A stretch of 43,534 bases of DNA, from positions 1 through 43,534 of the forward strand of contig JAGHJS010000066.1 of assembly GCA_017886545.1 (NCBI GenBank). The letters are read 5' to 3'. Below, one piece after another: positions 1,468 to 42,270 of this stretch; position 1 is the stretch's first letter, and the number at the start of each line of letters is the position of its first letter. Under the pieces are notes generated by a model. That model ran no database searches and was not told where the DNA came from. It saw nothing but the letters and a program-made list of their open reading frames with translations. The position numbers were made by a program, and so were the translations under genes. The stretch comes from Clostridia bacterium (lineage in GTDB: Bacteria; Bacillota; Clostridia; Christensenellales; Borkfalkiaceae).

Positions 1468-2282
1468 AATTCCTCCGAAAGGACGGCGAGAACGTCGGCA
1501 TTCGCGCCGAGGAGCTGCGGCAGCTCCGCTTCCTCCAGCGGGTGCGCCGCGCTCTCCCGCCCCGCCTCGATGGTAAAGGCGGGAATGCCGCACGTCTGAA
1601 TGCACCAATCTTTATACCCGCCGCTGCTGCCCGCAATGCGCCGCGCGGCATACCCCGTTGCGCGGGCGAGCGCTTCGGCGAGCGCGCCGTCCCGCGCCTC
1701 CCGTTCTCCCGTCTGCCCGTAGTGCCAGTAGATCTCTTCCCCCTTCGTATGATAGCTGACCGTAGCGTCGGGGGAAACTTCGAGTGTGAAGTCGCGCAGG
1801 GCGCGCGTTTCCGGCTCCGAAAAGGGCGCCGCGCCGATGTAATTTTCGGGGGCGGGCGCGCGCACGTTCTGCACGCCCCGCCCCCAGTCCGCGTCGAAAT
1901 TCACGTTCAGGTCGACGGCGTTCGCGTTCGCCTTCCAAAGGCGAAACCCGCCCCCGCCGATGCGGCGCAGGCTTTCCGCCCGCTCCCGCGGGAGCGTCTG
2001 TAAAAAGGCTTCGCCGCGCAGGGCGAGCGCCGCGCCGTCGGGATTGGTACAGGGCAAAAACCAGCACCCGCCCCGCGGTACGCCGCGGCGGATATGTTCG
2101 GGCGCAAGGAGCGCCGTCACCCACTCCCGCGCGTGGATGGCATACTGTACAATGAGCTGCGGGTATCCCTTTTCCCCGACGAACAGCGCCACGATCGGCT
2201 GCCCGCACACGCTCCTGCCGATCACCCGCTTTTCGCCGCTGCAGCTTTCGTAAAACGCGTATACTTTTTGCAGTGCATCCAT
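1452..2282 (-). CDS. M14-family zinc carboxypeptidase
   Basis: The 276-residue protein has the three M14 zinc ligands in the expected order: His50 and Glu53 (IHAREW), and His178 (VSYHTKG), plus the catalytic glutamate Glu239 in FTIEAGRE. It resembles the gamma-D-glutamyl-diaminopimelate peptidase branch, which trims cell-wall muropeptides, but the substrate cannot be read from the sequence. No signal peptide is visible, so it probably works in the cytoplasm on recycled peptides (inference). The ATG at 2282 is chosen over an in-frame TTG at 2306. It lies downstream of rlmH by 109 bp and overlaps tadA. Confidence 0.85.
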   Translation of the reverse strand: MDALQKVYAFYESCSGEKRVIGRSVCGQPIVALFVGEKGYPQLIVQYAIHAREWVTALLAPEHIRRGVPRGGCWFLPCTNPDGAALALRGEAFLQTLPRERAESLRRIGGGGFRLWKANANAVDLNVNFDADWGRGVQNVRAPAPENYIGAAPFSEPETRALRDFTLEVSPDATVSYHTKGEEIYWHYGQTGEREARDGALAEALARATGYAARRIAGSSGGYKDWCIQTCGIPAFTIEAGRESAAHPLEEAELPQLLGANADVLAVLSEELWKTR

Positions 2283-2356
2283 GCTTCCACTATATGGCGG
2301 AAGCAAAAATTCTGTCCGCGACGGGAGCTTTCAAATACAGCTGTCCGCGGCGGGAG
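2282..2356 (-). promoter_or_regulatory. Direct repeat and start-codon hairpin before the M14 gene
   Basis: Two 16-bp direct copies (15/16 identical) of a CTGTCCGCGRCGGGAG unit lie at 2312-2327 and 2341-2356. Next to the start, 2282-2290 can pair with 2297-2305 (8 of 9 pairs), which would fold the only purine-rich stretch before the ATG into a stem. Both lie in the rlmH-M14 gap. Function is unknown. Confidence 0.35.
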
Positions 2357-2391
2357 GGTCCGGATGCATCCGTCCCTATTGTATCCGCCCC

Positions 2392-2829
2392 TTATTTATG
2401 GTACTCCGCCCCCGCGTTGATCATATACGCGCGGTAGATCTGTTCGAGCAGAATAACGCGCATGAGCTGGTGCGGAAAGGTCATCGCCGAAAAGGAGAGC
2501 AGCATATCCGCGCGCTCCTTTACGCGCGCGTCCAATCCGCAGGAAGAGCCGATGACAAAGGTCACTTCCGCGCCCGCCGCGGCGAGCGCTTTCATTTTTG
2601 CGGCGAGCGCCTCGCTGGAAAGCCCCTTCCCCTCCACCGCCAGCACGACGACGAACCCGCGCAGGCGGGGCAGGATGGCCTCCGCCTCCTCGGCGAGGGT
2701 GCGGCGCTCGGGGAGTTCCTCCACCCTGACATCGGCAAAGCGGGAGAGCCGCTTGCAATACTCCGCGCAGGCGTCGGCATAAAATTTTTCTTTGCATTTG
2801 CCCACGCAGACGATACGCACCTTCTGCAT
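2392..2829 (-). CDS. rlmH: 23S rRNA (pseudouridine1915-N3)-methyltransferase RlmH
   Basis: RlmH is a SPOUT methyltransferase that uses SAM to methylate pseudouridine 1915 in helix 69 of 23S rRNA. The 145-residue product has the family N-terminus (MQKVRIVCVGK), the SAM-knot segment FVIGSSCGL (about 96-104) and the conserved C-terminus ending AGAEYHK; it is slightly short against the usual 155-160. Its ATG shares one base with the stop codon of the upstream CPBP gene (TGATG), which suggests translational coupling. Confidence 0.94.
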   Translation of the reverse strand: MQKVRIVCVGKCKEKFYADACAEYCKRLSRFADVRVEELPERRTLAEEAEAILPRLRGFVVVLAVEGKGLSSEALAAKMKALAAAGAEVTFVIGSSCGLDARVKERADMLLSFSAMTFPHQLMRVILLEQIYRAYMINAGAEYHK

Positions 2830-4019
2830 CACAGCACCCCCACGACGAACACATATACCCACATCACCGCGCACACGATGATGCCGGGCAGCGCAGGCTT
2901 TACGAACGCCTTGCACGGGACCTGCCGTTTTGTATTGCCGCGCTTGTCAAAAAAGAGCAGCCACACGAGCGAACCGACAAGGCAGAGCGCGGACAGCACA
3001 TAGATGGCGATCTCCCCGCCAAGCGGCACATGCCGTAAAAAAGAAAACCGCAGTTCCAGAACGATGAACGCGTTGTTCAGAAGATGCGCCGCGACGGCGG
3101 GCAGCAGCGAATCCGCGCGTATCGCAAGCAGCGTGAACGCCGCGCCGCAGATGAATTGGTAGATCGTCTGTTCGGGGTTCTGGTGAAAGAGCGAAAAGCA
3201 CAGCCCGCCCAGAAGGCAGGCGGCGGCGGTGCCGAGCGCCTTCATCCCCTCCAGCATCACGCCGCGGAAAATGCTCTCCTCCAAAAACGCGGGCAGCACG
3301 GCGACGACGGCGAGCGCGCCGACGATCCCCGCGCCCGCCATGGAGGGCAGCGAAGAGGCGTCGCTCATTCCGCCGCTGTACCCGATCAGTTCGAGCAGTT
3401 CGAGGAAATAGGAATTGACCTTATCCAGGCTGAACAAAAGCCCGAATTGCAGTGCGATCGCGATGAGGAAGTATTTCCAGCTCGTTTTACGGTAGCCGAA
3501 CGCGCGCGGCCTTTCCTTATAGATAAAGATGACCGCCGCAAGCGCCCCGACGTACAGAAGCTGGTATAAAAGGTAGGAGAGATACTTTGCGACCTCCGAC
3601 CCCGTGACCGCGCCGACTTCGGTATTCCCTGCCCGCGCGATGAGCATGACCGTGAGCGAATACACACAGTTCAGAAGCAGCATCCCGAGGACGACCGCCG
3701 AATAGAACCCGCCCGAAAGCCGCGCCCGCATATACAGCGGCGAACGCACCTGCGTCTGCTGCCCGTCCGCGCCGCCCGCGGAGGGCGCGGGAGCGCCGCC
3801 CGCAGGCAATTCTTCCGTATCCATCGGCCGCACCTGCACGGTGTGCCCCGAAAGGGGCGCGCCCCTTTCCGTTTCTTCCGAAAGCGAAGGAATGCGCGCG
3901 GCGCGCTCTTCTGCGCCCGTCTGTTCGGGACTTTTTTCCGTCTGTTCGGGGTTTCTATTCGCCTGTTCGGAATTTTTATTCGTCTGCTGCGGCGAAGCGC
4001 CGCCGTTGTTCCCGTTCAT
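2829..4019 (-). CDS. CPBP-family intramembrane metalloprotease (CAAX-like)
   Basis: A 396-residue polytopic membrane protein. A long charged cytoplasmic-type N-terminus (about 1-110) precedes roughly eight hydrophobic helices. The Abi/CPBP motifs are present in order: EESIFRG (EExxxR), FSLFH and HLLNNAF (HxxxN), the presumed metal ligands. Members act as membrane proteases, some in bacteriocin immunity or peptide processing; the substrate here is unknown. The N-terminus holds three to four 7-residue repeats ending in EQ, encoded by 21-bp DNA repeats (about 3920-3992). The predicted transcript starts within one or two bases of the ATG. It heads the unit CPBP-rlmH-M14-tadA. Confidence 0.87.
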   Translation of the reverse strand: MNGNNGGASPQQTNKNSEQANRNPEQTEKSPEQTGAEERAARIPSLSEETERGAPLSGHTVQVRPMDTEELPAGGAPAPSAGGADGQQTQVRSPLYMRARLSGGFYSAVVLGMLLLNCVYSLTVMLIARAGNTEVGAVTGSEVAKYLSYLLYQLLYVGALAAVIFIYKERPRAFGYRKTSWKYFLIAIALQFGLLFSLDKVNSYFLELLELIGYSGGMSDASSLPSMAGAGIVGALAVVAVLPAFLEESIFRGVMLEGMKALGTAAACLLGGLCFSLFHQNPEQTIYQFICGAAFTLLAIRADSLLPAVAAHLLNNAFIVLELRFSFLRHVPLGGEIAIYVLSALCLVGSLVWLLFFDKRGNTKRQVPCKAFVKPALPGIIVCAVMWVYVFVVGVL

Positions 4020-27890: not shown

Positions 27891-27928
27891 GAAGAGCCGC
27901 CCGCATCAAACATTGCGGGCGGCTCTTC
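27891..27928. terminator. Bidirectional terminator between the YoaK-family gene and lacI
   Basis: GAAGAGCCGCCCGC (27891-27904) pairs perfectly over 14 bp with 27915-27928. On the minus strand it leads, after CCCGTTG, into TTTTTTATT, so it works best for the lacI transcript. Confidence 0.7.
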
Positions 27929-27961
27929 TTCGGGTCCGAACGTCCTGCTGCGCGGGCGGGG

Positions 27962-28972
27962 TCACCACCCCTTGCGCGGCGTCGACTTCCCTTCGACCAG
28001 GACGGAAACATGCGTATCTTTAAACGGCAGACGCGGCGTCAGGTCCTCATCCGTGAGCATCTCCAGCATTACCGCCGCGCCCGCGTGCGCAAACTCCGTG
28101 ACCCCCACGTCGATCGTGGTCAGCATGCGCGGCATCCGAAGCATCTGCTGAATGTTATCGTACCCGACGATCCCGTAATCCTCACCCATACGCAGCCCGC
28201 GGCGCTCCAGGGCGTCGATCATGACGAACGCAATAATATCGTTAAAGCAGAACAGCCCGTCTACTTTATCCGCCACAAGTTTATCCGCGATCGCATCGAA
28301 ATCCGTTTCGCGGATATAAAAAATGTGCGATCCGTCCAACGCGTCGCCCGCCGCTTCCGCAAACCCGTGCTGCCTGTCGAGGCACACTTTTACATCATGC
28401 CAGCTGCCGATGTACGCGAGGTTGCGATACCCGCGGGAAAGGAGATGTTCCCCCGCCAGCCTGCCGCCGAACTCTTCGTCCGCATCCACGCCGCGCATGC
28501 CGTAAGGCGTGCCGTCCCGTCCGAAGATGACAAACGGGATCCCCGATTCGCGGATGAAGCCGACTGTATCCTCCGCCGGCTCCAAAAACGACAGGATGCC
28601 GTCCGGCTTACGGGAAAGGACGCTGCGGATAAGGTCATTGTCCACATACGGAGAACGTGCGTTATTGGAAAAAATAATGGTATTGTACCCGTTTTCCTCA
28701 AAGATGCGCGACAGGATATCCGTTGTAAACGAATAGAACGGGTTCACGAGATCGTCGAACACGATCGCGATGGTGCGCGTACTGCCGCTGCGGAGGCCCG
28801 AGGCGTTCCTGTCCGCAATGTAGCCGAGTTCGCGGCAAGCCTGCGTGACTTTGTCCTCCACTTCCTTTGTGTAATACGGCTTTTTGTTCAGCACCCGCGA
28901 AACGGTGTTTACGGAAAGCCCCGTATGCGCCGCAACATCTTTCAACGTGATTTTTTTCTTTGCCTGGCTCAT
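27962..28972 (-). CDS. LacI-family transcriptional regulator
   Basis: A 336-residue repressor. N-terminal helix-turn-helix and hinge: ITLKDVAAHTGLSVNTVSRV (8-27) with LNKKPYYTKE, then a periplasmic-binding-protein-like sensor domain (IAIVFDDLVNPFYS, VIFGRDG, NLAYIGSW, GLFCFNDIIAF, YGIVGYDNIQ). The ligand is presumably a sugar, but no sugar gene lies beside it, so its targets may be elsewhere. The ribosome site is weak. A strong sigma-A promoter precedes it, and the 9-bp palindrome CGTTAAACG near 29010-29018 between promoter and gene could be an autoregulatory site (weak). Confidence 0.93.
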   Translation of the reverse strand: MSQAKKKITLKDVAAHTGLSVNTVSRVLNKKPYYTKEVEDKVTQACRELGYIADRNASGLRSGSTRTIAIVFDDLVNPFYSFTTDILSRIFEENGYNTIIFSNNARSPYVDNDLIRSVLSRKPDGILSFLEPAEDTVGFIRESGIPFVIFGRDGTPYGMRGVDADEEFGGRLAGEHLLSRGYRNLAYIGSWHDVKVCLDRQHGFAEAAGDALDGSHIFYIRETDFDAIADKLVADKVDGLFCFNDIIAFVMIDALERRGLRMGEDYGIVGYDNIQQMLRMPRMLTTIDVGVTEFAHAGAAVMLEMLTDEDLTPRLPFKDTHVSVLVEGKSTPRKGW

Positions 28973-29034
28973 AGTCTGTTACCGCCTGTTAATTCGTGAG
29001 GCACGCCGTTCGTTAAACGTTCCCCTTTTCTTTT

Positions 29035-29063
29035 ATCATACCATTTTTTTATTACGCTGTCAA
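29035..29063 (-). promoter_or_regulatory. Sigma-A promoter of lacI
   Basis: TTGACA (29058-29063), 17-base spacer, TATGAT (29035-29040) on the minus strand. Confidence 0.75.
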
Positions 29064-29173
29064 GGCTCGCATAAAAATTCAAGCGGAAAAACACACGATT
29101 TTCAGCAAATCGCCCGCAAAAGAAAAAGCCTGCGCCTTTCCTTGAAAAATTTTGAAAAACGGAGTAAAATCAT

Positions 29174-29201
29174 TTTACTTTTTTCAAAAAAGTAGTATAA
29201 T
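29174..29201 (+). promoter_or_regulatory. Probable promoter of the tRNA-Pro transcript
   Basis: TTTACT (29174-29179), 16-base spacer, TATAAT (29196-29201). A 19-bp palindrome TACTTTTTTCAAAAAAGTA (29176-29194) overlaps it. The transcript would include the broken tRNA pieces at 29221-29445 before the intact tRNA. Confidence 0.5.
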
Positions 29202-29220
29202 AAGTTATGCTGTTTTGCCC

Positions 29221-29445
29221 CGAGGTGTGGTCAATCGGCAGCATTCGGTCAAACGCCATTGAACAGAGCAACGAGGTGTGGCTAAGTATTGGTAGCGCGC
29301 ACGGACAGGGTTCCCGAAAATCGCAGTGAGCGCAGCGAACGAGATTTTTGGGATAAGGAGGAGCGGAGCGCGCATGCGAGCATTGCCCCACAGGGCGATG
29401 CGAGAGAGCAGCCGACCGCGACGACGCAGGGACCAAGAGGTCGTG
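29221..29445 (+). pseudogene. Broken tRNA-Pro-like copies around a structured insert
   Basis: CGAGGTGTGG, the first 10 bases of the tRNA-Pro at 29476, also occurs at 29221-29230 and 29272-29281; the second copy continues into a D-arm-like TATTGGTAGCGCGC. The anticodon-to-variable-loop segment AGGGACCAAGAGGTCGTG (29428-29445) is an exact 18-bp copy of 29510-29527. Between them lies about 120 bp with strong hairpins (11 bp near 29310-29351, 9 bp near 29380-29402). It looks like a tandem tRNA copy split by an insertion. Confidence 0.5.
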
Positions 29446-29848: not shown

Positions 29849-31780
29849 TTACCCGAGCATCTGCTCTTTGAAACTTTGCATCAGGAAGCGCAGCCCTTCG
29901 AGCTGTTCCAAAAGTTCCGCGCCCGTATCCGTGTCGCTGACAAGCAGCCGCTTTTCGCGCGTTTCGAACACGGTCACTTCGGAGTGGATGTCGCTGCGCT
30001 GTTCGATCGCCTTTTCAATGGAGTCGAACGGCTCGTGCGCGCACAGCCGCAGCCCGTGCGAATTGTAGATGAGCGTATAACCCGCGATGCCCGTCTTTTC
30101 ATGGTACGCCTTGCAGAACCCGCCGTCGATGACGATGAGCTTCCCCTCCGCTTTGACGGGGTTTTCGCCGAGCTTTGTACGCACGGGCACGTGCCCGTTG
30201 ATGATATGGCTGTACTGCCCCTCGATGCCGAAATCCTTCAGCACCCGCTCGCAGAAATCCCTGCGCTTGCAGTAGAGGTAGTAACTGTTGTCCTGCTCCT
30301 TATGGAAGGCGGGGTCGTCGATGTACAGCCGCTCGAAGGTGGTGAGCTTTTCCCTGCCGTACAGGGGCGAGGCGCGCCCGCACCAGAGGTACCAGCAAAA
30401 ATCCAGCGCCTCTTCCTCCTCCCCGCCCTCGCGGTACGCGGCATAGGCGCGGCGCACGGTGCGGTCACAGAAGTCCAGAAGCTCCTTCCCCTCATGCCCG
30501 CAGAAATTCATGTAAGAGCCGTCCGGCTCCAGCGGGATGCAGCCGTGAAAGATCAGGTTCCCGTTGCTGACTTTATATGCGGAGCCGTGTTCGAACAAAA
30601 ACGCGATGTGCCTGCGCAGTTTTTCGGAGGAACGGAAGGAACGTTTGAGCGCGTCGATGACCGCCCGCTCGGCGGGCGTGAAGCGGAGCGGATCGGCGGG
30701 GTCGACGTTCGGGAACGAAGTATCGCTGAGTTTTGCGCCGCAGAACTCTCCTTTCGCAAAATCGACCCGACGCAGGATATTCCGCCCGTCCATGCCGTAC
30801 TCGGGGCGGCGTTCGATGATATGCCCCTCCGCCTTGAGCTGCATGAGAAATGCCGCCTTGCGCATTTTTGCGAGCAGGCGCACGCTTTCGTCCGCATGCA
30901 CGGGATCGGCGCCGACGGGGTAAAAACGGGGGTCGTCGTCCATCTCCTCCGCCGCATACATCGAAAGTTTGCGCAGCGAAATGCCGTAGCCCTCTTCAAG
31001 AAGATCCGCATTGTCGTATTTCAGAGAGAGGTCGATCACGCTGAGCAGGCACGCCTCGTTGCCCATGTGCGCGCCGATCCACTGAATATCGTGGTTGCCC
31101 CACTGCACGTCCGCATTGTGATGCGCGATGAGCAGGTCCATGATCTTATCGGGGTTTTCGCCGCGGTCGAACACATCCCCGACGATATGCAGGCAGTCGA
31201 CGGCAAGCCGCTTGATGAGGTCCGTGATCGCCACGATGAATGCTTCCGCCCTGCCCAGCTCGATGATGGAGGTGAAGATCTCGCCGTAGTACGCCTCTTT
31301 GTCGAAATCGTCGCGGTCCATGTTGATAAGCTCGTCGATGATGTAATCGAAGTGCAGCGGCAACGCCTTGCGCACCTTGCTGCGCGTATATTTTGAAGCG
31401 ACCGAGCGGCATACCTCGACGAGGCGGTGCAGCTGTACGAGGAACCACGCTTTTCCCGCCGCGCGCTGCGCCTTTTTTTCGGCGATGATCGCCGCGGGGT
31501 AATAGATGAGCGTGGCGAACTCGTCGCGCTCGCGCTTGCTCATCGTCTTGCCGTACAGCCGCTCCACCTTTTCGCGGATGACGCCCGAACAGTTGTTCAC
31601 GATGTGACAGAACGCCTCGTATTCGCCGTGCAGGTCGCTCATAAAGTGCTCCGTGCCCTTCGGCAGGCGCAGGATCGCCTCGATGTTGATCATCTCCGTC
31701 GCCGCCGCCTGCACGGTCGGATATTTTTCACGGATCAGGCGCAGGTATTCGCGGTCACGCTTCCCCGTATCTTTCTGCAT
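29849..31780 (-). CDS. fbp: Fructose-1,6-bisphosphatase, class III
   Basis: The Firmicutes-type gluconeogenic FBPase hydrolyses fructose 1,6-bisphosphate. The 643-residue protein has the metallophosphatase motifs FMSDLHGEYEAF (about 46-57), HIVGDVFDRGENP (about 196-208) and WGNHDIQWIGAH (about 224-235), and C-terminal INGHVPV and IVIDGGFCKAYH. The length is normal. ATG at 31780 follows AGAGGGTGCAC; a GTG two codons earlier is too close to it. A TATAAT lies at 31807-31812 on the minus strand without a clear -35. It is a single-gene unit. Confidence 0.96.
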   Translation of the reverse strand: MQKDTGKRDREYLRLIREKYPTVQAAATEMINIEAILRLPKGTEHFMSDLHGEYEAFCHIVNNCSGVIREKVERLYGKTMSKRERDEFATLIYYPAAIIAEKKAQRAAGKAWFLVQLHRLVEVCRSVASKYTRSKVRKALPLHFDYIIDELINMDRDDFDKEAYYGEIFTSIIELGRAEAFIVAITDLIKRLAVDCLHIVGDVFDRGENPDKIMDLLIAHHNADVQWGNHDIQWIGAHMGNEACLLSVIDLSLKYDNADLLEEGYGISLRKLSMYAAEEMDDDPRFYPVGADPVHADESVRLLAKMRKAAFLMQLKAEGHIIERRPEYGMDGRNILRRVDFAKGEFCGAKLSDTSFPNVDPADPLRFTPAERAVIDALKRSFRSSEKLRRHIAFLFEHGSAYKVSNGNLIFHGCIPLEPDGSYMNFCGHEGKELLDFCDRTVRRAYAAYREGGEEEEALDFCWYLWCGRASPLYGREKLTTFERLYIDDPAFHKEQDNSYYLYCKRRDFCERVLKDFGIEGQYSHIINGHVPVRTKLGENPVKAEGKLIVIDGGFCKAYHEKTGIAGYTLIYNSHGLRLCAHEPFDSIEKAIEQRSDIHSEVTVFETREKRLLVSDTDTGAELLEQLEGLRFLMQSFKEQMLG

Positions 31781-31897
31781 GTGCACCCTCTTTGTTCTTT
31801 TCCGTTATTATACAACAAAACGGCCGTAAAAAAAAGAGGTTTGCGAAAATTTCCCTGAAAAAATCCGCCCCGCGCCTTTCCGCGCCTTTCACGGCAC

Positions 31898-31932
31898 AAA
31901 AAACGCCCGCAGACACCATGTGTCTGCGGGCG
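31898..31932 (-). terminator. Terminator of the sigma-factor gene cluster
   Basis: A 13-bp perfect stem (31904-31916 with 31920-31932), loop CAT, followed on the minus strand by TTTTTT (31898-31903), 57 bp after the lipoprotein stop. Confidence 0.9.
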
Positions 31933-31989
31933 CATTCCCTCGGCCGCCCTCAGAGGGATACGGGAGCACGGCCGCAAGGAGCGCTGAAA

Positions 31990-33432
31990 TCATCCGCGCC
32001 CGGCGCGCAGCTGCGCAAGATAGTCCTTCGCGGTCTGCGCCGCCTGTTCCTTCGCTTCCGCGAAAGCGTTTTCGAGCCTGCTCATCGCCTGATCCAGCGC
32101 CGCAACGGCGTTATCGACAAGTTTCAGGTCGTTTTCCGACAGTTCGGAACGGATGTCGGAAAGGGTGCTGTCGGCGCGGGAATCGAAGGTATCGCGCGCG
32201 GCGTATGCCGCCGCCTTCGGCTCCGTTGCGGAACCGATCGCCGTCTGCAGGTCGTTCACCAGCCCCTTGAATTCGTCGACGTATGCCGAGATCACGGACA
32301 CGGCTCCGTCGGGAATGACGGAAGAGATGTCGCTGCACAGCTTTTCAAACGCCGCTTTGTACTCGTCGGCAATGCCCGCATCCACCGTGGCGGCGAACTC
32401 CTGCACCTTTTCCATGGCGGCATCGATCTGCGCTTCGACCGCCGCGCGCTCGTCCGCCGTCATGTTTTTGACGTAGGAATCCAGCCAGTCGTTCATCTCG
32501 GCATAGTTCGTGACCTCGGAGAGGAACGCCTCCTTCTGCTCCTCGCTCATGCCGATCGCGTCCGCGACCGCCGTCAGCAGCTCCTGCGAAACGGCCGTCT
32601 TCTGCGCAGCCGCCTCCGCTTCTTCCGCCGCGACGAGCGCCGTATCCAGAGCGCCGTACGCATTGACATACAGGTTGTAGATCAACCCCCTGTTGACGGG
32701 ATAGGAAAGAATGTTGGCATAAGGCAGCAGGTAAGGCGTGACGAGCAGACTGTTCTTGCCGTTTTCGTACGTCGACTGCGCCACGCGCACCGCCGCGTCA
32801 TACGCCGCCGTCGCATACGGCTCGATGGCCTCCGCCGCGTCGTTCACGATGGCGATCAGTTCGCTTGCGTCCATATCCGCCGCCGCTTCGACCGTCAGCG
32901 TATTGTCCGCCGCCTGCGCCGAAAGGATAAGGCTGAACTCCGCCACGCCGAGGTCGAGATCGTACGCCGCATTGACGGCGTGCAGCTCGCGGTTGAGCGT
33001 GAACGTCCCTTCCGAGGAAAGGTTCACGTCGATCCCCTCCGCCTCTGCCGCCGCCGTAAAGGACGCCGACGCCGCGGCAAAGATTTCGTCTGCGTCCGCC
33101 CGCCCTTCGACCAGAACGTCGACGCCGTAATTGTTCTCATTGATGTACCCGAGATCGACGGAAAGCTGCGCGATCCTATCGATCGCGTCTTCCGCGCTCA
33201 GCCCCGTAAGGTCTTCTCCGTACAGGAGCACCTGCGCGTCTTCGTTCTCCGCGTACACGGAGAGCACGTCGCCGCCCGCGTCCAGAGACAGCGCCAAAGA
33301 AGGGTTCACATCCACCTGCACGTACGAGACCGCCTCGTCCTGCGGGGCGCACCCCACGCCGATCAGCCCGAACGCGCCCGTCATCACCGCCGCAAGGCAG
33401 CACGCCGTGACTTTCCCGATCGATTTTTTCAT
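31990..33432 (-). CDS. Lipoprotein with an RsgI-type sensor domain
   Basis: A 480-residue exported protein: basic start MKKSIGKV, hydrophobic stretch, then GVGC with Cys28 as probable lipidation site. Residues about 36-150 hold the extracellular domain known from RsgI anti-sigma proteins: VDVNPSLALSLDAGGDVLSV, a GLSAEDAIDRIA helix and LGYINENNYGVDV. The rest is an alanine/glutamate-rich helical region (about 190-480) without motifs. The domain is homologous in layout to residues 98-215 of the neighbouring anti-sigma protein. The ATG at 33432 has AGGAGG 8 bases before it. It has its own promoter, matching that of the sigma gene. Confidence 0.75.
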   Translation of the reverse strand: MKKSIGKVTACCLAAVMTGAFGLIGVGCAPQDEAVSYVQVDVNPSLALSLDAGGDVLSVYAENEDAQVLLYGEDLTGLSAEDAIDRIAQLSVDLGYINENNYGVDVLVEGRADADEIFAAASASFTAAAEAEGIDVNLSSEGTFTLNRELHAVNAAYDLDLGVAEFSLILSAQAADNTLTVEAAADMDASELIAIVNDAAEAIEPYATAAYDAAVRVAQSTYENGKNSLLVTPYLLPYANILSYPVNRGLIYNLYVNAYGALDTALVAAEEAEAAAQKTAVSQELLTAVADAIGMSEEQKEAFLSEVTNYAEMNDWLDSYVKNMTADERAAVEAQIDAAMEKVQEFAATVDAGIADEYKAAFEKLCSDISSVIPDGAVSVISAYVDEFKGLVNDLQTAIGSATEPKAAAYAARDTFDSRADSTLSDIRSELSENDLKLVDNAVAALDQAMSRLENAFAEAKEQAAQTAKDYLAQLRAGRG

Positions 33433-33464
33433 ATTCCGCACCTCCTGCGTTCTTTTTTACACAC

Positions 33465-33493
33465 TATAAACGAAGGACGGAACCGTTTTGTTG
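33465..33493 (-). promoter_or_regulatory. ECF-type promoter of the lipoprotein gene
   Basis: On the minus strand CAACAAAACGG (33483-33493), 10 bases, CGTTTATA (33465-33472). The same two blocks with the same spacing occur before the sigma factor gene (35505-35533), while the 10 bases between differ. Confidence 0.7.
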
Positions 33494-33533
33494 GGAAATT
33501 TTTTCTTTTTTGCAAAAATTTTTCCGCCGAAGG

Positions 33534-33613
33534 AGCCGCCCGCATGAATTGCGCTGCCGAGAAAGCCGCCCGCATGAATTGCGCCGCCGCGGAGATCCGC
33601 GGCGGCGCAATTC
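33534..33613 (-). terminator. Hairpin and 21-bp direct repeat after the anti-sigma gene
   Basis: A 17-bp perfect stem (33576-33592 with 33597-33613) lies 6 bp after the anti-sigma stop. A 21-bp exact direct repeat (33534-33554 and 33564-33584) duplicates part of the stem, so either repeat copy could pair with the first arm. No T-run; it may be a partial terminator or processing site between the anti-sigma and lipoprotein genes. Confidence 0.5.
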
Positions 33614-33618
33614 GTCCT

Positions 33619-34983
33619 TTACTGTTTACCGATCCTTGCGAGGAACGCCGCGTATTCCGCTTCGCCGATCGCTTCGCGCGGCAGCGAGAACAGGGCGGAA
33701 TACCGCAGGTACAGCGCCTGCGCTTCGCTCGTTACCAGGGAAGAGATGCTTTCAAAGAGTTCTTCCAGGGTATCCGTCACCCCGTCGAACAGTTCCGAAA
33801 AAATCGTTTGCAGCAGATCGTTCCCGACAAAATTATAATATTTGAGACGCAGCGAAAAATGTTCGGTCCCGCCGAAATTTTCCGCGCCGATCCCCTCTTC
33901 GAGCAAGACGCGCAATTCTGCGACGTCCGCCTCGCTGACCGTGAGCATGTACGCCCCGTAAGACGTTTCGAATGCAAAATACGAATCCCATTCCAGCCCG
34001 AAGAGCAGGCGCATCTGCGCCAGCGTACGCTCCGTTTCCGCACAGAGCGCCGCCACTTCTTCGGATGCGTCTTCCCTGCCCCGCCAATACCAATAACTTG
34101 CCGTATCGAACAGGAGGCTCAGCGAACCGCCGCATGCCTCCGCGATCTGCCCGTTCAGCTCACGGATGCGCACGTAAAGGTCGTACTTTGCGAGCGCGTC
34201 CGCAAGAAGGACTTCCGCACAATCGTACGCCCTCCTTTCCGCATACGCTTCCAGCGCAGCCGCCTCGCCGATCCGTTCGTAATACAGCGCCTGTTCTTCC
34301 GCATAACTTTCCGCCCGGTCGGAAACGTCCGTCTTCACCGTTTCGGCTTCCGCATAAAGGTAAATACCCAAACTGCGGCTGTGCTCCGTGATCGCGGTAG
34401 AAATTTCCGACGCGGTCTCCGCCGAGGCGTTCGCGCCCGTCAGCGTCAGCGTGACCTCGTTATACCCTTCCGCGCTGCCCGTATCCGTCACGTCGAGATA
34501 CCCCGTCTGCGCGGCGCGGTCGGTCACGGCGATCGCCGCCTCTTCCGCGGACGTACCGATCAGCGAATCGAAAAAGCCTTCCTCGCTCAGCAGAACGGTG
34601 TCGCCGTCCGCGTTGAGGCTGATAACGCCCGTCACCTTCTGCGAACCGTCCAAAACGAACCCGACGGACGGATTGATGTCCAGCCGCAGCACGGAAACAC
34701 CGCCGCGCGGCAGCGCGGCGAACAGCACGCCGAGCACCAGTCCGCACAGGAGCACGCACGCAAGGACGATCGCCGGCACGCGCCACCGCGCCGTACCGAA
34801 AAATCTGCCCGAATGCCCGCCTGCGCCCGCAGCCGCCGGCACGGGCTCCGCCTTGTATTCGGGAACGGGTTCGCGTTCGGGCGAAGCGGATACGATCGGT
34901 TCCGCTTTGAGCGTTTCGGAAAGAGGCGGCGTGATCGCGTCCAGCTCGCCGTCAAGCCGTTTGAAAAAATCTTTGCGGTCCAT
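33619..34983 (-). CDS. RsgI-like membrane anti-sigma factor
   Basis: A 454-residue single-pass membrane protein: short cytoplasmic N-terminus (1-66) with MDRKDFFKRLDGELDAITPP, a proline/glutamate linker, one transmembrane helix (about 68-92), then an extracellular sensor with LRLDINPSVGFVLDGSQKV, GTSAEEAAIAVTDRA and a long helical region. The DINPS block is the hallmark of the RsgI extracellular domain. The cytoplasmic part lacks the zinc HxxxCxxC anti-sigma motif and does not look like the RsgI N-domain. The ATG is two bases after the sigma gene stop, the expected sigma/anti-sigma pair. Confidence 0.8.
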   Translation of the reverse strand: MDRKDFFKRLDGELDAITPPLSETLKAEPIVSASPEREPVPEYKAEPVPAAAGAGGHSGRFFGTARWRVPAIVLACVLLCGLVLGVLFAALPRGGVSVLRLDINPSVGFVLDGSQKVTGVISLNADGDTVLLSEEGFFDSLIGTSAEEAAIAVTDRAAQTGYLDVTDTGSAEGYNEVTLTLTGANASAETASEISTAITEHSRSLGIYLYAEAETVKTDVSDRAESYAEEQALYYERIGEAAALEAYAERRAYDCAEVLLADALAKYDLYVRIRELNGQIAEACGGSLSLLFDTASYWYWRGREDASEEVAALCAETERTLAQMRLLFGLEWDSYFAFETSYGAYMLTVSEADVAELRVLLEEGIGAENFGGTEHFSLRLKYYNFVGNDLLQTIFSELFDGVTDTLEELFESISSLVTSEAQALYLRYSALFSLPREAIGEAEYAAFLARIGKQ

Positions 34984-34985
34984 AC

Positions 34986-35489
34986 CTATTCCACCTCCCC
35001 GAATTTTTCCAGCTTTTTGAGTGCCGCGGCATACTTCCAGCTGACCGTGCCCGCGGGCATATCCAAGAGTCTGGCGATCTCGCGGTGCTTATAACCCCAA
35101 TACACATGCAGGACAACGATCTCGCGCTCCGTTTCGTTCAGCGAAGAGAGCATATACGAGAGCGCCGCGCCGTCCGCCGCGGGCGGCGCGGGCATGTTTT
35201 CGGGCATTTCGCCCCGCCGTTTCCGCCTGCGCAGTTCGTCCAGCGCAAGATTTTTCACGATCTGCAAAAGCCATGCGCGCGCGTTCGTCCCCTTTTTATA
35301 GGTATACGCCCTGCGCTTGACCGTAAGATAGGCACTCTGCATGACGTCCTCCGCATCCTCGCGGTTCCCTAAATACGAATAGGCGAAGGAAAACACGCCC
35401 TTCGCGGTCGCCGCATAAAATTTTCCGAATGCGTCGTTATCGCCCTCCGCCACGCGCGCAAGGAGCGCATCCAGTTCTTTTGCATCCAT
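34986..35489 (-). CDS. ECF-type RNA polymerase sigma factor
   Basis: A 167-residue sigma-70 family protein with only regions 2 and 4. Region 2: AFGKFYAATAKGVFSFAYSY, GNREDAEDVMQSAYLTVKR and ARAWLLQIVKNLALDELRRR (about 72-91). Region 4: LNETEREIVVLHVYWGYKHR with EIARLLDMPAGTVSWKYAAA (about 117-156). It starts with ATG 35489 after GAGGGTACGGG. Two promoters of identical architecture before itself and before the lipoprotein gene suggest autoregulation. Confidence 0.93.
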   Translation of the reverse strand: MDAKELDALLARVAEGDNDAFGKFYAATAKGVFSFAYSYLGNREDAEDVMQSAYLTVKRRAYTYKKGTNARAWLLQIVKNLALDELRRRKRRGEMPENMPAPPAADGAALSYMLSSLNETEREIVVLHVYWGYKHREIARLLDMPAGTVSWKYAAALKKLEKFGEVE

Positions 35490-35504
35490 CCCGTACCCTC
35501 ACCG

Positions 35505-35533
35505 TATAAACGAACGGCCCCGCCGTTTTGTTG
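35505..35533 (-). promoter_or_regulatory. ECF-type autoregulated promoter of the sigma gene
   Basis: CAACAAAACGG (35523-35533), 10 bases, CGTTTATA (35505-35512) on the minus strand, ending 16 bp before the ATG. It matches the element before the lipoprotein gene base for base in both blocks. Confidence 0.7.
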
Positions 35534-35646
35534 ACGGTTTTTACAAAAAAATTCGTCGATCGCCCTCTTTTTTTTACGGAAGAGCGGCGGATGAGCCGTT
35601 CCTCCCGTTTACAGTATCCAGTATACACTATTTTCACGCGGAATGC

Positions 35647-35694: not shown

Positions 35695-37191
35695 TCAGTT
35701 TGCCCGTTCCGTAAGCGGGAACTGCACCCAGAAGATGCTTCCGTGCCCGACTTCGCTTTCCACGCCGTACGCGAACCCGTGCTTGACGAGGATGGTCTTT
35801 ACGATAGAAAGCCCCAGCCCCGTCCCTTTTACGGGACGCTTGTGCGTATCGGTGGAACGGTAGTAGCGGTCCCAGATGGTTTCGCGCTCTTCGGGCGCGA
35901 TGCCCTTGCCCGTATCGGTGACGGTGAAGCGGATCTTTTCCCCTTCCGCATATAAGGCGACGGTGATCTTTTTATCCTCGCCCGTGTAGCTGACCGCATT
36001 CCCGATGAGATTGTACACGACCTGTTCGACCTTTTCGATATCCGCTTCGGTGCAAAGCCCCGCGTCGATCCTGCGCTCGATGACGTATCCCTGCGTTTCG
36101 GTCAGATACCCGAACCGTTCCAACACCGTTTCGACGACTTCCGAAAGATCGAACTCGCGTACTTTGAGCGTATCCATGCCCGAACGGATCTTGGAGAGGT
36201 TCAGAACGTCGTTGATGAGCGCCGTGAGCCTGTCAGACTCGTCGATGATGACCTGCGTATGCTTTTCGCGCTTGGCGGGGTCGGTGCCGCTGATCTCCTG
36301 GATCATCGATGCGTACGCCTTGATCATGGTCAGCGGCGTTTTCAGGTCGTGCGTAACGTTGGCAAGCACTTCGCGCTGCAATTCGTCCGACTTCCCGATC
36401 TCTTCCTTCGCATAATCCAGCGTTTCGGCAAGCGCGTCGATCTCGGCATAAGCGTATTCGCCCTTGAAGTTCACGGTAAAATCGCCCTTTGCCATGCGCT
36501 GCGCTGCCTGCGTGATGCGGTGCAGCGGCTTCGTGAGACGCGAAGAGAGCAATGCCGAAATAAACAGCGCCAGAAAGATGACGATGACGGAAATAAGGAT
36601 CAGCTCCCACTGCATGGTGCCGAACGCGCTGTTCGCCAGCTGCATCGAATAGCTTATATACAGGTAACGCGCGCTGTCCGTTGCCGCAGAATCCGTATCG
36701 CCGCCGTCCAGGCGCGCCGCATACGCATAATAATCGTCGCTCAGGCGCACGCGCACATCGCCGCGCTCGGTCTGCTCACATTCCAGGACATTTTTAAGCG
36801 TTTCCTTATTCGGCGCTTCCTGCGGCGGCGACGCCTGATCCCCGCTGTTCGGATAGAGAAGCGTCCCTTCGCCGTCAAAAATAAAAATTTTGACCTCCGG
36901 ATGCTCGCTCTGTATGGCGTCGATATACAGATCGATCTCCGACGCGACAGATTCCGCTCCGTTCGCACTGCCGGAGAACGCCGCTTCGGCTTTCATAAAA
37001 TATCTCATCCGCTCGCTCACCTGGATCCCGATGCTGTCCAGGTCATACTCCGCTTCGCGGCTGTAAAAAACGCGCAGAAGCGCCATCTGGAACACCCATG
37101 TAAGGAGCAGGATAAAAACGGCAAATACAAGAAAATAGACCCACAGTATGAAGTTGATGCTGTGAAAACGCTTTGCGTTCAACTTGATCAT
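35695..37191 (-). CDS. Sensor histidine kinase (HisKA/HATPase)
   Basis: A 498-residue membrane kinase: two transmembrane helices (about 13-35 and 194-216) enclosing an extracellular sensor of ~155 residues, a HAMP domain (about 217-270), the phosphoacceptor His281 in NVTHDLKTPLT, N-box NLIGNAVSYT, G1 DTGKGI, F-box region IWDRYYRS and G2 GTGLGLSI. It partners with the response regulator whose stop overlaps its ATG (ATGA). The signal is unknown; the organisation is that of PhoR/ResE/VanS-like kinases. Confidence 0.95.
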   Translation of the reverse strand: MIKLNAKRFHSINFILWVYFLVFAVFILLLTWVFQMALLRVFYSREAEYDLDSIGIQVSERMRYFMKAEAAFSGSANGAESVASEIDLYIDAIQSEHPEVKIFIFDGEGTLLYPNSGDQASPPQEAPNKETLKNVLECEQTERGDVRVRLSDDYYAYAARLDGGDTDSAATDSARYLYISYSMQLANSAFGTMQWELILISVIVIFLALFISALLSSRLTKPLHRITQAAQRMAKGDFTVNFKGEYAYAEIDALAETLDYAKEEIGKSDELQREVLANVTHDLKTPLTMIKAYASMIQEISGTDPAKREKHTQVIIDESDRLTALINDVLNLSKIRSGMDTLKVREFDLSEVVETVLERFGYLTETQGYVIERRIDAGLCTEADIEKVEQVVYNLIGNAVSYTGEDKKITVALYAEGEKIRFTVTDTGKGIAPEERETIWDRYYRSTDTHKRPVKGTGLGLSIVKTILVKHGFAYGVESEVGHGSIFWVQFPLTERAN

Positions 37192-37859
37192 GCTTCGAAT
37201 TTATACCCCATTCCGCGCAGCGTCACGATAAATTTGCGGTACTCGCCCAGGCTGCTGCGCAGCATTTTGATATGCGTATCCACCGTGCGGTCGTCCCCGT
37301 AAAAATCGAACCCCCACACGTCGGACAGCAGTTTTTCGCGCGAAAGCGCAATGCCGTTGTTCTTGACAAGATAAAACAGCAGCTCGTATTCCTTGGGCGT
37401 GAGCTCCAGCTTTTCGCCGTCGACGTAGACGTTGCGCCCCTTCATGTCGATCTCCAGCCCCTCGAATTTATAGGTCTTGCGGTCCGCCGCAGCCGTCCCC
37501 GCGCGGTGCCGCTTGGTGACCGCCGCGATGCGCGCCATCACCTCTTTGGGCGAAAACGGCTTGGTCACATAGTCGTCCGCTCCCACTTCAAACCCGAACA
37601 GCTTGTCATATTCCTCTCCGCGCGCGGAAAGCATGATGACGGGGATGTCCTTGTTTTTGCGGATCTCTTTGACGGCGGAAAAGCCGTCCAGCCCCGGCAT
37701 CATCACGTCCATCAGAATGATGTCGAAATCCATATCCTTGCACATGCGCACGGCCTGCAGCCCGTCTTCCGCCTCAAACGCATCGTTCCCCTCGAATTCA
37801 ACGTATTCGCGCAGGACGTCACGGATCATCTTTTCATCGTCCACGATCAGAACTTTCAT
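37188..37859 (-). CDS. OmpR-family response regulator
   Basis: A 223-residue regulator: receiver domain with the acidic pocket VDDEK (Asp7/Asp8), phosphoacceptor Asp51 in ILMDVMMPG, and KPF near residue 103; then an OmpR/PhoB winged helix (about 130-223) ending DDRTVDTHIKMLRSSLGEYR and RGMGYKFEA. ATG at 37859 follows AAGGAGAATACGA; an upstream in-frame start lacks such a site. First gene of a two-gene operon with the kinase. Confidence 0.96.
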   Translation of the reverse strand: MKVLIVDDEKMIRDVLREYVEFEGNDAFEAEDGLQAVRMCKDMDFDIILMDVMMPGLDGFSAVKEIRKNKDIPVIMLSARGEEYDKLFGFEVGADDYVTKPFSPKEVMARIAAVTKRHRAGTAAADRKTYKFEGLEIDMKGRNVYVDGEKLELTPKEYELLFYLVKNNGIALSREKLLSDVWGFDFYGDDRTVDTHIKMLRSSLGEYRKFIVTLRGMGYKFEA

Positions 37860-37945
37860 TCGTATTCTCCTTGCGGCGCCCGTTCTTGTTTCACCCATCT
37901 CTCCCGGATCCCGCCGAAAGGGAGCGGACCGACCGCCTGCTTTTA

Positions 37946-41699: not shown

Positions 41700-41972
41700 A
41701 TGGCTCAAATCATTCCTATCCGTGACTTAAAAAACACTGCGGAAATTTACGAACGCTGCACATCATCCAATGAACCTATTTTTATTACGAAAAACGGGTA
41801 CGGCGGCATGGTCCTTATGAGTATGGACCTGTATAATAGAAAGATGGCAAAGCTCGATTTGCTTGAAAAACTGAAAGTTGCCGAAGACCAGCTTAAAAGC
41901 GGCGTTCAGGCTCTCCCCGCCGAAACAGTCCTAAGCGAATTACGGGAAAAATATGCAAAACTACAAGGTTAA
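41700..41972 (+). CDS. Antitoxin, Phd/YefM type
   Basis: A 90-residue antitoxin. The N-terminal DNA-binding part reads IIPIRDLKNTAEIYERC (4-20) and PIFITKNGYGGMVLMSMDLY (about 25-44), the Phd/YefM pattern; the helical C-terminus (about 48-90) would wrap the toxin. AAGGGAGG lies before the ATG. The next gene starts 20 bp before this one ends. Confidence 0.9.
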   Translation: MAQIIPIRDLKNTAEIYERCTSSNEPIFITKNGYGGMVLMSMDLYNRKMAKLDLLEKLKVAEDQLKSGVQALPAETVLSELREKYAKLQG

Positions 41973-42270
41973 AATTCTTCCTGTCGCGCAGGACGATCTG
42001 ATTGATACAAGCAACTACATCGCCAACGTATTGTGCAACCCGTCCGCTGCGGTAAACCTTCTCGATAAAATCGGAGCCGCTTTTCAGCAGCTCCAAACAT
42101 TTCCGTTCAGCGGGACAAAACTGAATGATGAAATTGTAAGGGAAACGGAATACCGTTTTTTACAGGTTGAAAACTACCTCATCTTTTATACGGTGAAACA
42201 GGAGATTGAAACCGTTTTTATCATGCGGGTGCTGTACGGCGCTTCGGATTACTCCTCAATATTGAAATAA
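41953..42270 (+). CDS. Toxin, RelE/ParE superfamily
   Basis: A 105-residue toxin with the family pattern VKILPVAQDDLIDTSNYIAN (5-24), FPFSGTKL, TEYRFLQVENYLIFYTV and IMRVLYGASDY at the end. Whether it is an mRNA interferase (RelE) or a gyrase poison (ParE) cannot be decided from sequence; the YIANVLxNPSAAVNLLDKI helix leans to ParE. Overlaps the antitoxin gene by 20 bp. Confidence 0.9.
   Translation: MQNYKVKILPVAQDDLIDTSNYIANVLCNPSAAVNLLDKIGAAFQQLQTFPFSGTKLNDEIVRETEYRFLQVENYLIFYTVKQEIETVFIMRVLYGASDYSSILK

Follow-up and report, generated by a model that had tools for sequence, protein, structure and literature searches.

Matched promoter elements probably tie an ECF sigma factor to its own operon and to a lipoprotein sharing the sensor domain of its anti-sigma factor

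When the same sequence element precedes a sigma factor gene and a nearby lipoprotein gene, does it mark the promoters of that sigma factor, and what would make the lipoprotein its second output? We addressed this question for a stretch of 43,534 nucleotides (GCA_017886545.1, contig JAGHJS010000066.1; hereafter the window), in which a sequence-only reading had noticed two such elements. Both lie on the minus strand, one ahead of the lipoprotein gene (33465..33493) and one ahead of the sigma/anti-sigma operon (35505..35533), and each is an exact match to a -35 block CAACAAAACGG, a 10-base spacer and a -10 block CGTTTATA. As that reading had described, all 19 specified bases and the 10-base spacing are the same in the two elements, and the spacers themselves are unlike (TTCCGTCCTT / CGGGGCCGTT); it was also right that the window's anti-sigma gene has no CAACAAAACGG-N10-CGTTTATA element upstream. 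Allowing up to three mismatches, the window contains two matches, compared with 0.01 expected from shuffles. The genome-wide search that the reading had proposed as a check returned the same two sites and no others from the genome of origin (2,058,024 bases in 91 contigs, 85.4% complete; up to three mismatches).

The distance from the end of the -10 block to the start codon is 15 bases for the sigma gene (ATG 35489) and 32 bases for the lipoprotein gene (ATG 33432). The latter start was preferred because it fits an AGGAGG ribosome site at 33441-33446, which makes the GTG at 33441 given by the mechanical list of open reading frames an unlikely start. From the sequence and the family logo, an A/T-rich, UP-element-like tract lies directly upstream of the -35 block of the sigma operon (35534..35562, minus strand), and an A/T-rich tract lies upstream of that of the lipoprotein gene (33494..33522, minus strand). 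The stretch separating the anti-sigma gene from the lipoprotein promoter contains a hairpin at 33574..33615 with perfect 18-bp arms (33576-33593 and 33596-33613, 2 bases apart), a possible terminator; one of its arms is partly copied at 33546-33559. Several neighboring features were seen alongside. A histidine kinase gene and a response regulator gene lie directly upstream of the sigma gene (minus strand, 35695-37898), two small overlapping genes at 41700-42270 on the plus strand resemble, by eye, a Phd/ParE-type toxin-antitoxin pair, and opposite the lipoprotein and anti-sigma genes the antisense strand has a stop-free frame of 1100 residues (plus strand, 31792-35094), probably as a by-product of GC-rich codon use.

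The sigma factor encoded at 34986..35489 (minus strand, 167 residues) contains regions 2 and 4 only, both above the Pfam cut-off (PF04542, 7.8e-16; PF08281, 9.9e-11), which identifies it as an ECF (group IV) protein. A SigI system was considered and rejected, as the sigma factor has region 4. Adjoining the sigma gene, the anti-sigma gene (33619..34983, minus strand) encodes 454 residues comprising a short conserved cytoplasmic helix, one predicted transmembrane (TM) helix, the RsgI central (SEAL) domain and a helical C-terminal part. Pfam includes a model for the N-terminal domain of RsgI; a scan of the anti-sigma factor to E 1 gave RsgI_M only, with no RsgI-type N-terminal anti-sigma domain. 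The lipoprotein (31990..33432, minus strand; 480 residues from the ATG start) consists of a signal peptide with Cys28, a SEAL domain (residues 34-141, 33010..33333, minus strand) and a helical domain (PF23750, 1.6e-16; AlphaFold2 mean pLDDT 87.2). By alignment and by eye, the lipobox cysteine is present in all 21 aligned orthologues.

Anti-sigma factor and lipoprotein thus have in common the RsgI central domain with its Asn-Pro site, their SEAL parts matching each other at 99.6% in hhalign. The fold assignment is based on Pfam, hhalign and solved RsgI structures; Foldseek alone ranks RsgI on top, yet with an E-value of 2.5e-3. The Asn-Pro pair sits in the turn linking the first SEAL strand to the second, and is the expected self-cleavage site of both proteins. 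In the anti-sigma factor, Asn104-Pro105 (34669..34674, minus strand) is flanked by predicted beta strands 97-102 and 106-111, and in 26 of 28 aligned orthologues the two residues stand side by side. The two exceptions (G051 and G038; L170, L173) have 14 residues between Asn and Pro in the alignment, though the lipoproteins of the same loci retain Asn-Pro. For the lipoprotein, Asn43-Pro44 (33301..33306, minus strand) is present in 21/21 aligned orthologues, this alignment excluding 7 of 28 sequences that were short, partial or broken and that by eye have Asn-Pro as well. In the RsgI structures 8hep and 8her, the first residue of chain B is the one that aligns with Pro44. Of the earlier view of the lipoprotein as an output of the sigma factor, its place as a target is supported, but it is not a generic envelope gene, since its RsgI-type domain is the one also present in the anti-sigma factor.

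We then analyzed the elements in a family set of 151 genomes, 79 of which have an ECF match with an E-value no higher than 1e-15 and 58 of which, from 16 of 18 genera, encode an RsgI_M protein. Upstream regions were scored at 31 of the 32 best ECF matches, leaving out one clade-4 locus (G129:C25; L175, L390), with a relaxed motif for this line of loci (line 1), CAAYAAAA-N12..14-YGTTTAATA, at a threshold of 14/17; the motif was composed after inspection of the same upstream regions that it scores. It reached the threshold before the sigma gene in 30/31 loci and before the lipoprotein gene in 26/28, compared with 12 of 1962 random windows from the scored loci (38 of 2000 having been dropped beforehand for overlap with a true site) and with none of 28 loci before the anti-sigma gene. 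The sigma-motif miss is a clade-4 locus in which the lipoprotein gene comes first (G075), and the lipoprotein-motif misses are G100 (13/17) and G080 (12/17); in the latter locus (L155, G080:C34) the lipoprotein gene is broken, split over two frames. The promoter is retained in G120 before a lipoprotein gene lying well inside a different contig from that of the sigma gene, and in G088 the sigma promoter is present with a single RsgI_M gene only. The gap is 13 in 49 of the 56 line-1 promoters, and the median distance from the end of the -10 block to the start codon is 31 nt for sigma and 37.5 nt for lipoprotein genes. That the two copies in the window arose by chance or by recent copying of upstream DNA is next to impossible and was rejected: although the genome of origin has just two copies, their spacers differ, and in relatives the motif precedes both genes in 26 of the 28 loci where both were scored.

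Beyond the two boxes, the family logo shows an A-tract followed by a T-tract, at some 11-19 nt ahead of the -35 block, and a conserved AGYGAAA directly after the -10 block (L144, L151 and L164, for example); both exceed what two promoter boxes need. Being superfluous for a plain promoter, the AGYGAAA would fit an operator or RNA element in place of a promoter. We consider this very improbable, given that the repeated block is non-palindromic, its two halves stand at ECF spacing with an A/T tract upstream, and it keeps the median distances to the start codon given above. Moreover, within 230 nt before 27 lipoprotein genes there is no sigma-A-like site scoring at least 10/12.

As to the type of promoter, YGT starts 20 bases after the first base of the AAY triad in the family's sigma promoters (30/31 loci), and the Streptomyces sigma-E promoters given in PMC6767563 have 20 or 21 bases from AAC to CGT, counted by eye. 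An A-tract follows the AAY triad in line-1 promoters; according to the description in PMC6056542, a T-tract is found in B. subtilis ECF promoters and an A-tract in SigI promoters. An AAC-type -35 combined with a CGT-type -10 at ECF spacing would thus fit in sequence and geometry, and the promoters of a sister circuit, described below, appear similar. The case for an ECF promoter is strong, but it does not extend to the element marking a single sigma factor.

To estimate the size of the regulon, we used a strict family pattern, CAAYAAAM-N13..15-GTTTAAT, with the reversed pattern as control. Across the 151 genomes it gave 66 matches, 44 of them on locus contigs (26 genomes) and 22 elsewhere, the latter not above the 27 matches of the control. 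Six of the 20 off-locus sites inspected lie within 160 nt before an open frame of more than 100 residues, two of them in genomes that have this sigma factor (G019, G079). A large regulon under the strict motif was rejected, the off-locus matches being at background level; under strict forms of the motif, the two promoters appear to account for all that is visible above background in the family. The window promoters themselves, with CGTTTATA as -10 block, fall outside the strict pattern, and their genome has no strict match, so that the mismatch scan described above serves as the test for the genome of origin. Taken together, the motif's conservation at both genes and its absence ahead of the anti-sigma gene, along with the scarcity of strict matches elsewhere, support the proposal of non-sigma-A promoters with self-regulation and a separate lipoprotein output. 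What had been called direct evidence for the recognition sequence is better described as comparative evidence from related sequences.

The upstream regions of other ECF genes of the family led us to a sister ECF circuit that the genome of origin also encodes (G000:C36, 27918-31578; L364). It has the same wiring, with a sigma gene (27918-28427), an anti-sigma match (28700-29440) and a separate lipoprotein gene (30622-31578), but the ectodomain type differs. With the sister lipoprotein as query, matches were obtained in 54 of the 151 genomes, including the genome of origin and counting in anti-sigma genes, and 20 sister loci were fetched, in 11 of which the lipoprotein gene is divergent from the sigma gene. 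A sister pattern, CCAACAA-N-GTT..TA, composed after inspection of the 40 upstream regions, was present before the sigma gene and before the lipoprotein gene in 20/20 loci each, and before the anti-sigma gene in 0/20; none of 3788 random windows contained it (212 of 4000 that overlapped a true site were dropped).

The sister anti-sigma ectodomain is homologous to the mature sister lipoprotein along its length (hhalign 100%, E 2.8e-65, 284 columns; reversed control, E 1.7e-6). It represents an unnamed domain with an FSAASAG motif, and Pfam at E 1 gave nothing above cut-off for either sister protein of G116. Compared with the SEAL line, only the cytoplasmic part and TM helix of the anti-sigma factors match (96.3%, 76 columns) and, among the lipoproteins, only the signal peptide (89.7%, 27 columns); hhalign found no match between the ectodomains.

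Do the two circuits share their promoters? The sister sigma factor might use the window elements too, or instead, making the window a node of an overlapping ECF network. In the genome of origin, CAACAAAACGG alone also stands upstream of the sister sigma gene, so that the -35 halves of the two sigma genes are the same, followed by a different second half: CGTTTATA in the window vs TTGTTATA and CTGTTATA in the sister promoters. In addition, the relaxed line-1 motif scores 14 or more in 26 of 40 sister promoters (sigma, 12/20; lipoprotein, 14/20), and the sister pattern in turn fits the window lipoprotein promoter. The two sigma factors may therefore cross-talk, and the motif may not be specific for one of them; for the same reason, we weighed the network higher and the assignment to one sigma factor lower. 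Against a network, only 4 of the 56 line-1 promoters, the window lipoprotein promoter included, meet the sister pattern, and the sister promoters of the genome of origin are more than three mismatches away from the window element. Nearly all line-1 promoters have GTTTAAT (positions conserved at 89-98%), which the sister promoters inspected do not have, and three genomes with line 1 (G011, G013, G019) give no match to the sister lipoprotein. We therefore regard a shared network as unlikely, if worth bearing in mind, and the two elements as probably promoters that the ECF sigma factor of 34986-35489 recognizes, serving its own operon and the lipoprotein gene. For the recognition sequence claimed by the sequence-only reading, this means that its nature as an ECF promoter holds, and its specificity for this factor is put in question by the similar promoters of the sister circuits.

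How might such a circuit operate? The SEAL anti-sigma factor would hold the ECF sigma factor inactive at the membrane and, by analogy, cut itself at Asn104-Pro105 with the halves staying associated. Loss of the ectodomain would then lead to intramembrane proteolysis of the anti-sigma factor and release of the sigma factor, which would fire its own sigma/anti-sigma operon and, from the second promoter, the lipoprotein, displaying the same domain type with an Asn-Pro site on a lipid anchor. Self-cleavage followed by proteolysis is expected because of the RsgI precedent: the periplasmic domain of RsgI is described as cutting itself before RseP and ClpXP act (PMC12203970), and the cut halves of B. 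subtilis RsgI as staying associated for as long as no wall defect is sensed (PMC10202637). A site-2 protease homologue is encoded in the genome of origin (PF02163, E 3.7e-62). Transcription by this sigma factor, alone or with the sister sigma factor, self-cleavage, and lipoprotein action on the sensor are the parts of this scheme that we infer.

The matched ectodomains, with CseA as a loose precedent, suggest that the lipoprotein feeds back on the sensor, as a decoy or by load sharing. Tentatively, the design could be self-referential, the dedicated output of the sigma factor being a lipid-anchored copy of the ectodomain of its own anti-sigma factor that shares the sensor's ligand, load or partner and so sets or ends the response. 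A change of ectodomain would then usually be paired with a change of the lipoprotein, and a pair nearly identical in DNA, as in G047, could arise as by gene conversion. About equal weight goes to the view, likewise somewhat short of an even chance, that the lipoprotein is a plain effector protecting or bracing the envelope, its likeness to the anti-sigma factor reflecting common descent with no action on the sensor. The effector role is suggested by the better conservation of the lipoprotein SEAL domain (mean identity to the window copy 46.0% vs 34.9% for the anti-sigma SEAL domain; 19 loci, window included) and by the lack of locus-by-locus co-variation in the sister line, where the lipoprotein of the same locus ranks first for similarity to the anti-sigma factor in just 2/20. 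The lipoprotein has, furthermore, its own large helical domain. What speaks for feedback on the sensor is that ectodomain and mature lipoprotein are homologous over their length in the sister line and that the SEAL line has a different domain in both proteins.

Other lines show how far this matching extends. In a further SEAL line, a stretch common to the upstream regions of the sigma and SEAL lipoprotein genes stood above ten shuffles in 4/7 loci, containing GCGATAAAA in G137, G089 and G031. In clade 4, where the lipoprotein gene precedes the sigma gene (9 loci inspected), ectodomains are matched in 3/9, namely G053 (48%), G075 (51%) and G047 (100% over 291 residues). The remaining 6/9 (G135, G111, G123, G084, G117, G129) combine a SEAL anti-sigma factor with a lipoprotein bearing the other type of ectodomain, that of the sister line (L382-L385, L388, L390), and so favor the plain effector. 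Matched anti-sigma and lipoprotein ectodomains are thus common, but not a rule. Pointing away from an effector, the lipoprotein and anti-sigma ectodomain of G047 are identical at 869 of 873 DNA positions (L387, G047:C44, 505-1531 and 2445-3591). The pair flanks one sigma gene, and its near-identity points to gene conversion or to a recent duplication, or possibly to an assembly artefact. In another clade-4 locus (L383, G111:C13; minus strand, 1677-3264), the sigma and anti-sigma matches fall in a single open frame of 529 residues, possibly a natural sigma/anti-sigma fusion.

The circuit resembles SigI/RsgI of B. subtilis and Clostridium thermocellum in its SEAL ectodomain with Asn-Pro beside the TM helix and in the adjacency of sigma and anti-sigma genes, and by analogy self-cleavage followed by intramembrane proteolysis would be expected. 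It differs in that the sigma factor is a true ECF protein with region 4, whereas SigI is described as being without region 4 (PMC10575876) and SigI-type factors as keeping region 2, with region 4 replaced by SigI-C (PMC10575876, PMC6056542). Moreover, the cytoplasmic anti-sigma part has no Pfam match, and the other gene targeted encodes a lipoprotein in which the SEAL domain recurs. With canonical ECF systems under a membrane anti-sigma factor, the circuit shares a sigma factor of regions 2 and 4 only, a TM anti-sigma factor, a probably self-regulated operon and the AAC to CGT spacing; it departs from them in the A-tract, and not T-tract, after the AAY triad, in the -10 block YGTTTA(A)TA and in its very few targets. 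In Streptomyces sigE-cseA-cseB-cseC, a lipoprotein is likewise encoded together with an ECF sigma factor, and loss of CseA is reported to raise the sigE promoter (PMC6767563). That system, however, has no anti-sigma factor; a two-component system drives sigE, which does not regulate itself, and CseA is not described in that paper as a copy of the sensor domain.

True ECF genes adjoining RsgI_M genes also occur elsewhere in Clostridia, in other families of the class (L216-L219, L222-L224) and in named Lachnospiraceae, Oscillospiraceae and Erysipelotrichaceae records (L068, L069, L074, L075). In a class-wide comparison (341 genomes, at most four candidates scored per genome), the lipoprotein match ended by profile position 234 of 497 among the matches listed outside the genome of origin, meaning that the SEAL end alone matched. 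Thus, RsgI-type sensor domains, which are self-cleaving in RsgI, stand beside true ECF sigma factors, and the elements suggest a promoter code, open to testing, for related ECF lines within a clostridial family that has been little studied. Should the lipoprotein act on the sensor, it would represent a distinct feedback layout in bacterial transmembrane signaling, in which the response produces a detached copy of the outer part of its receptor, by a logic like that of decoy receptors, and the paired circuits with exchanged ectodomains would provide a natural experiment on feedback. Compared with the known systems, the promoter pair by itself is that of an ordinary self-regulated ECF pair; what is new is the ectodomain shared by anti-sigma factor and lipoprotein, and the recurrence of this layout with another domain.
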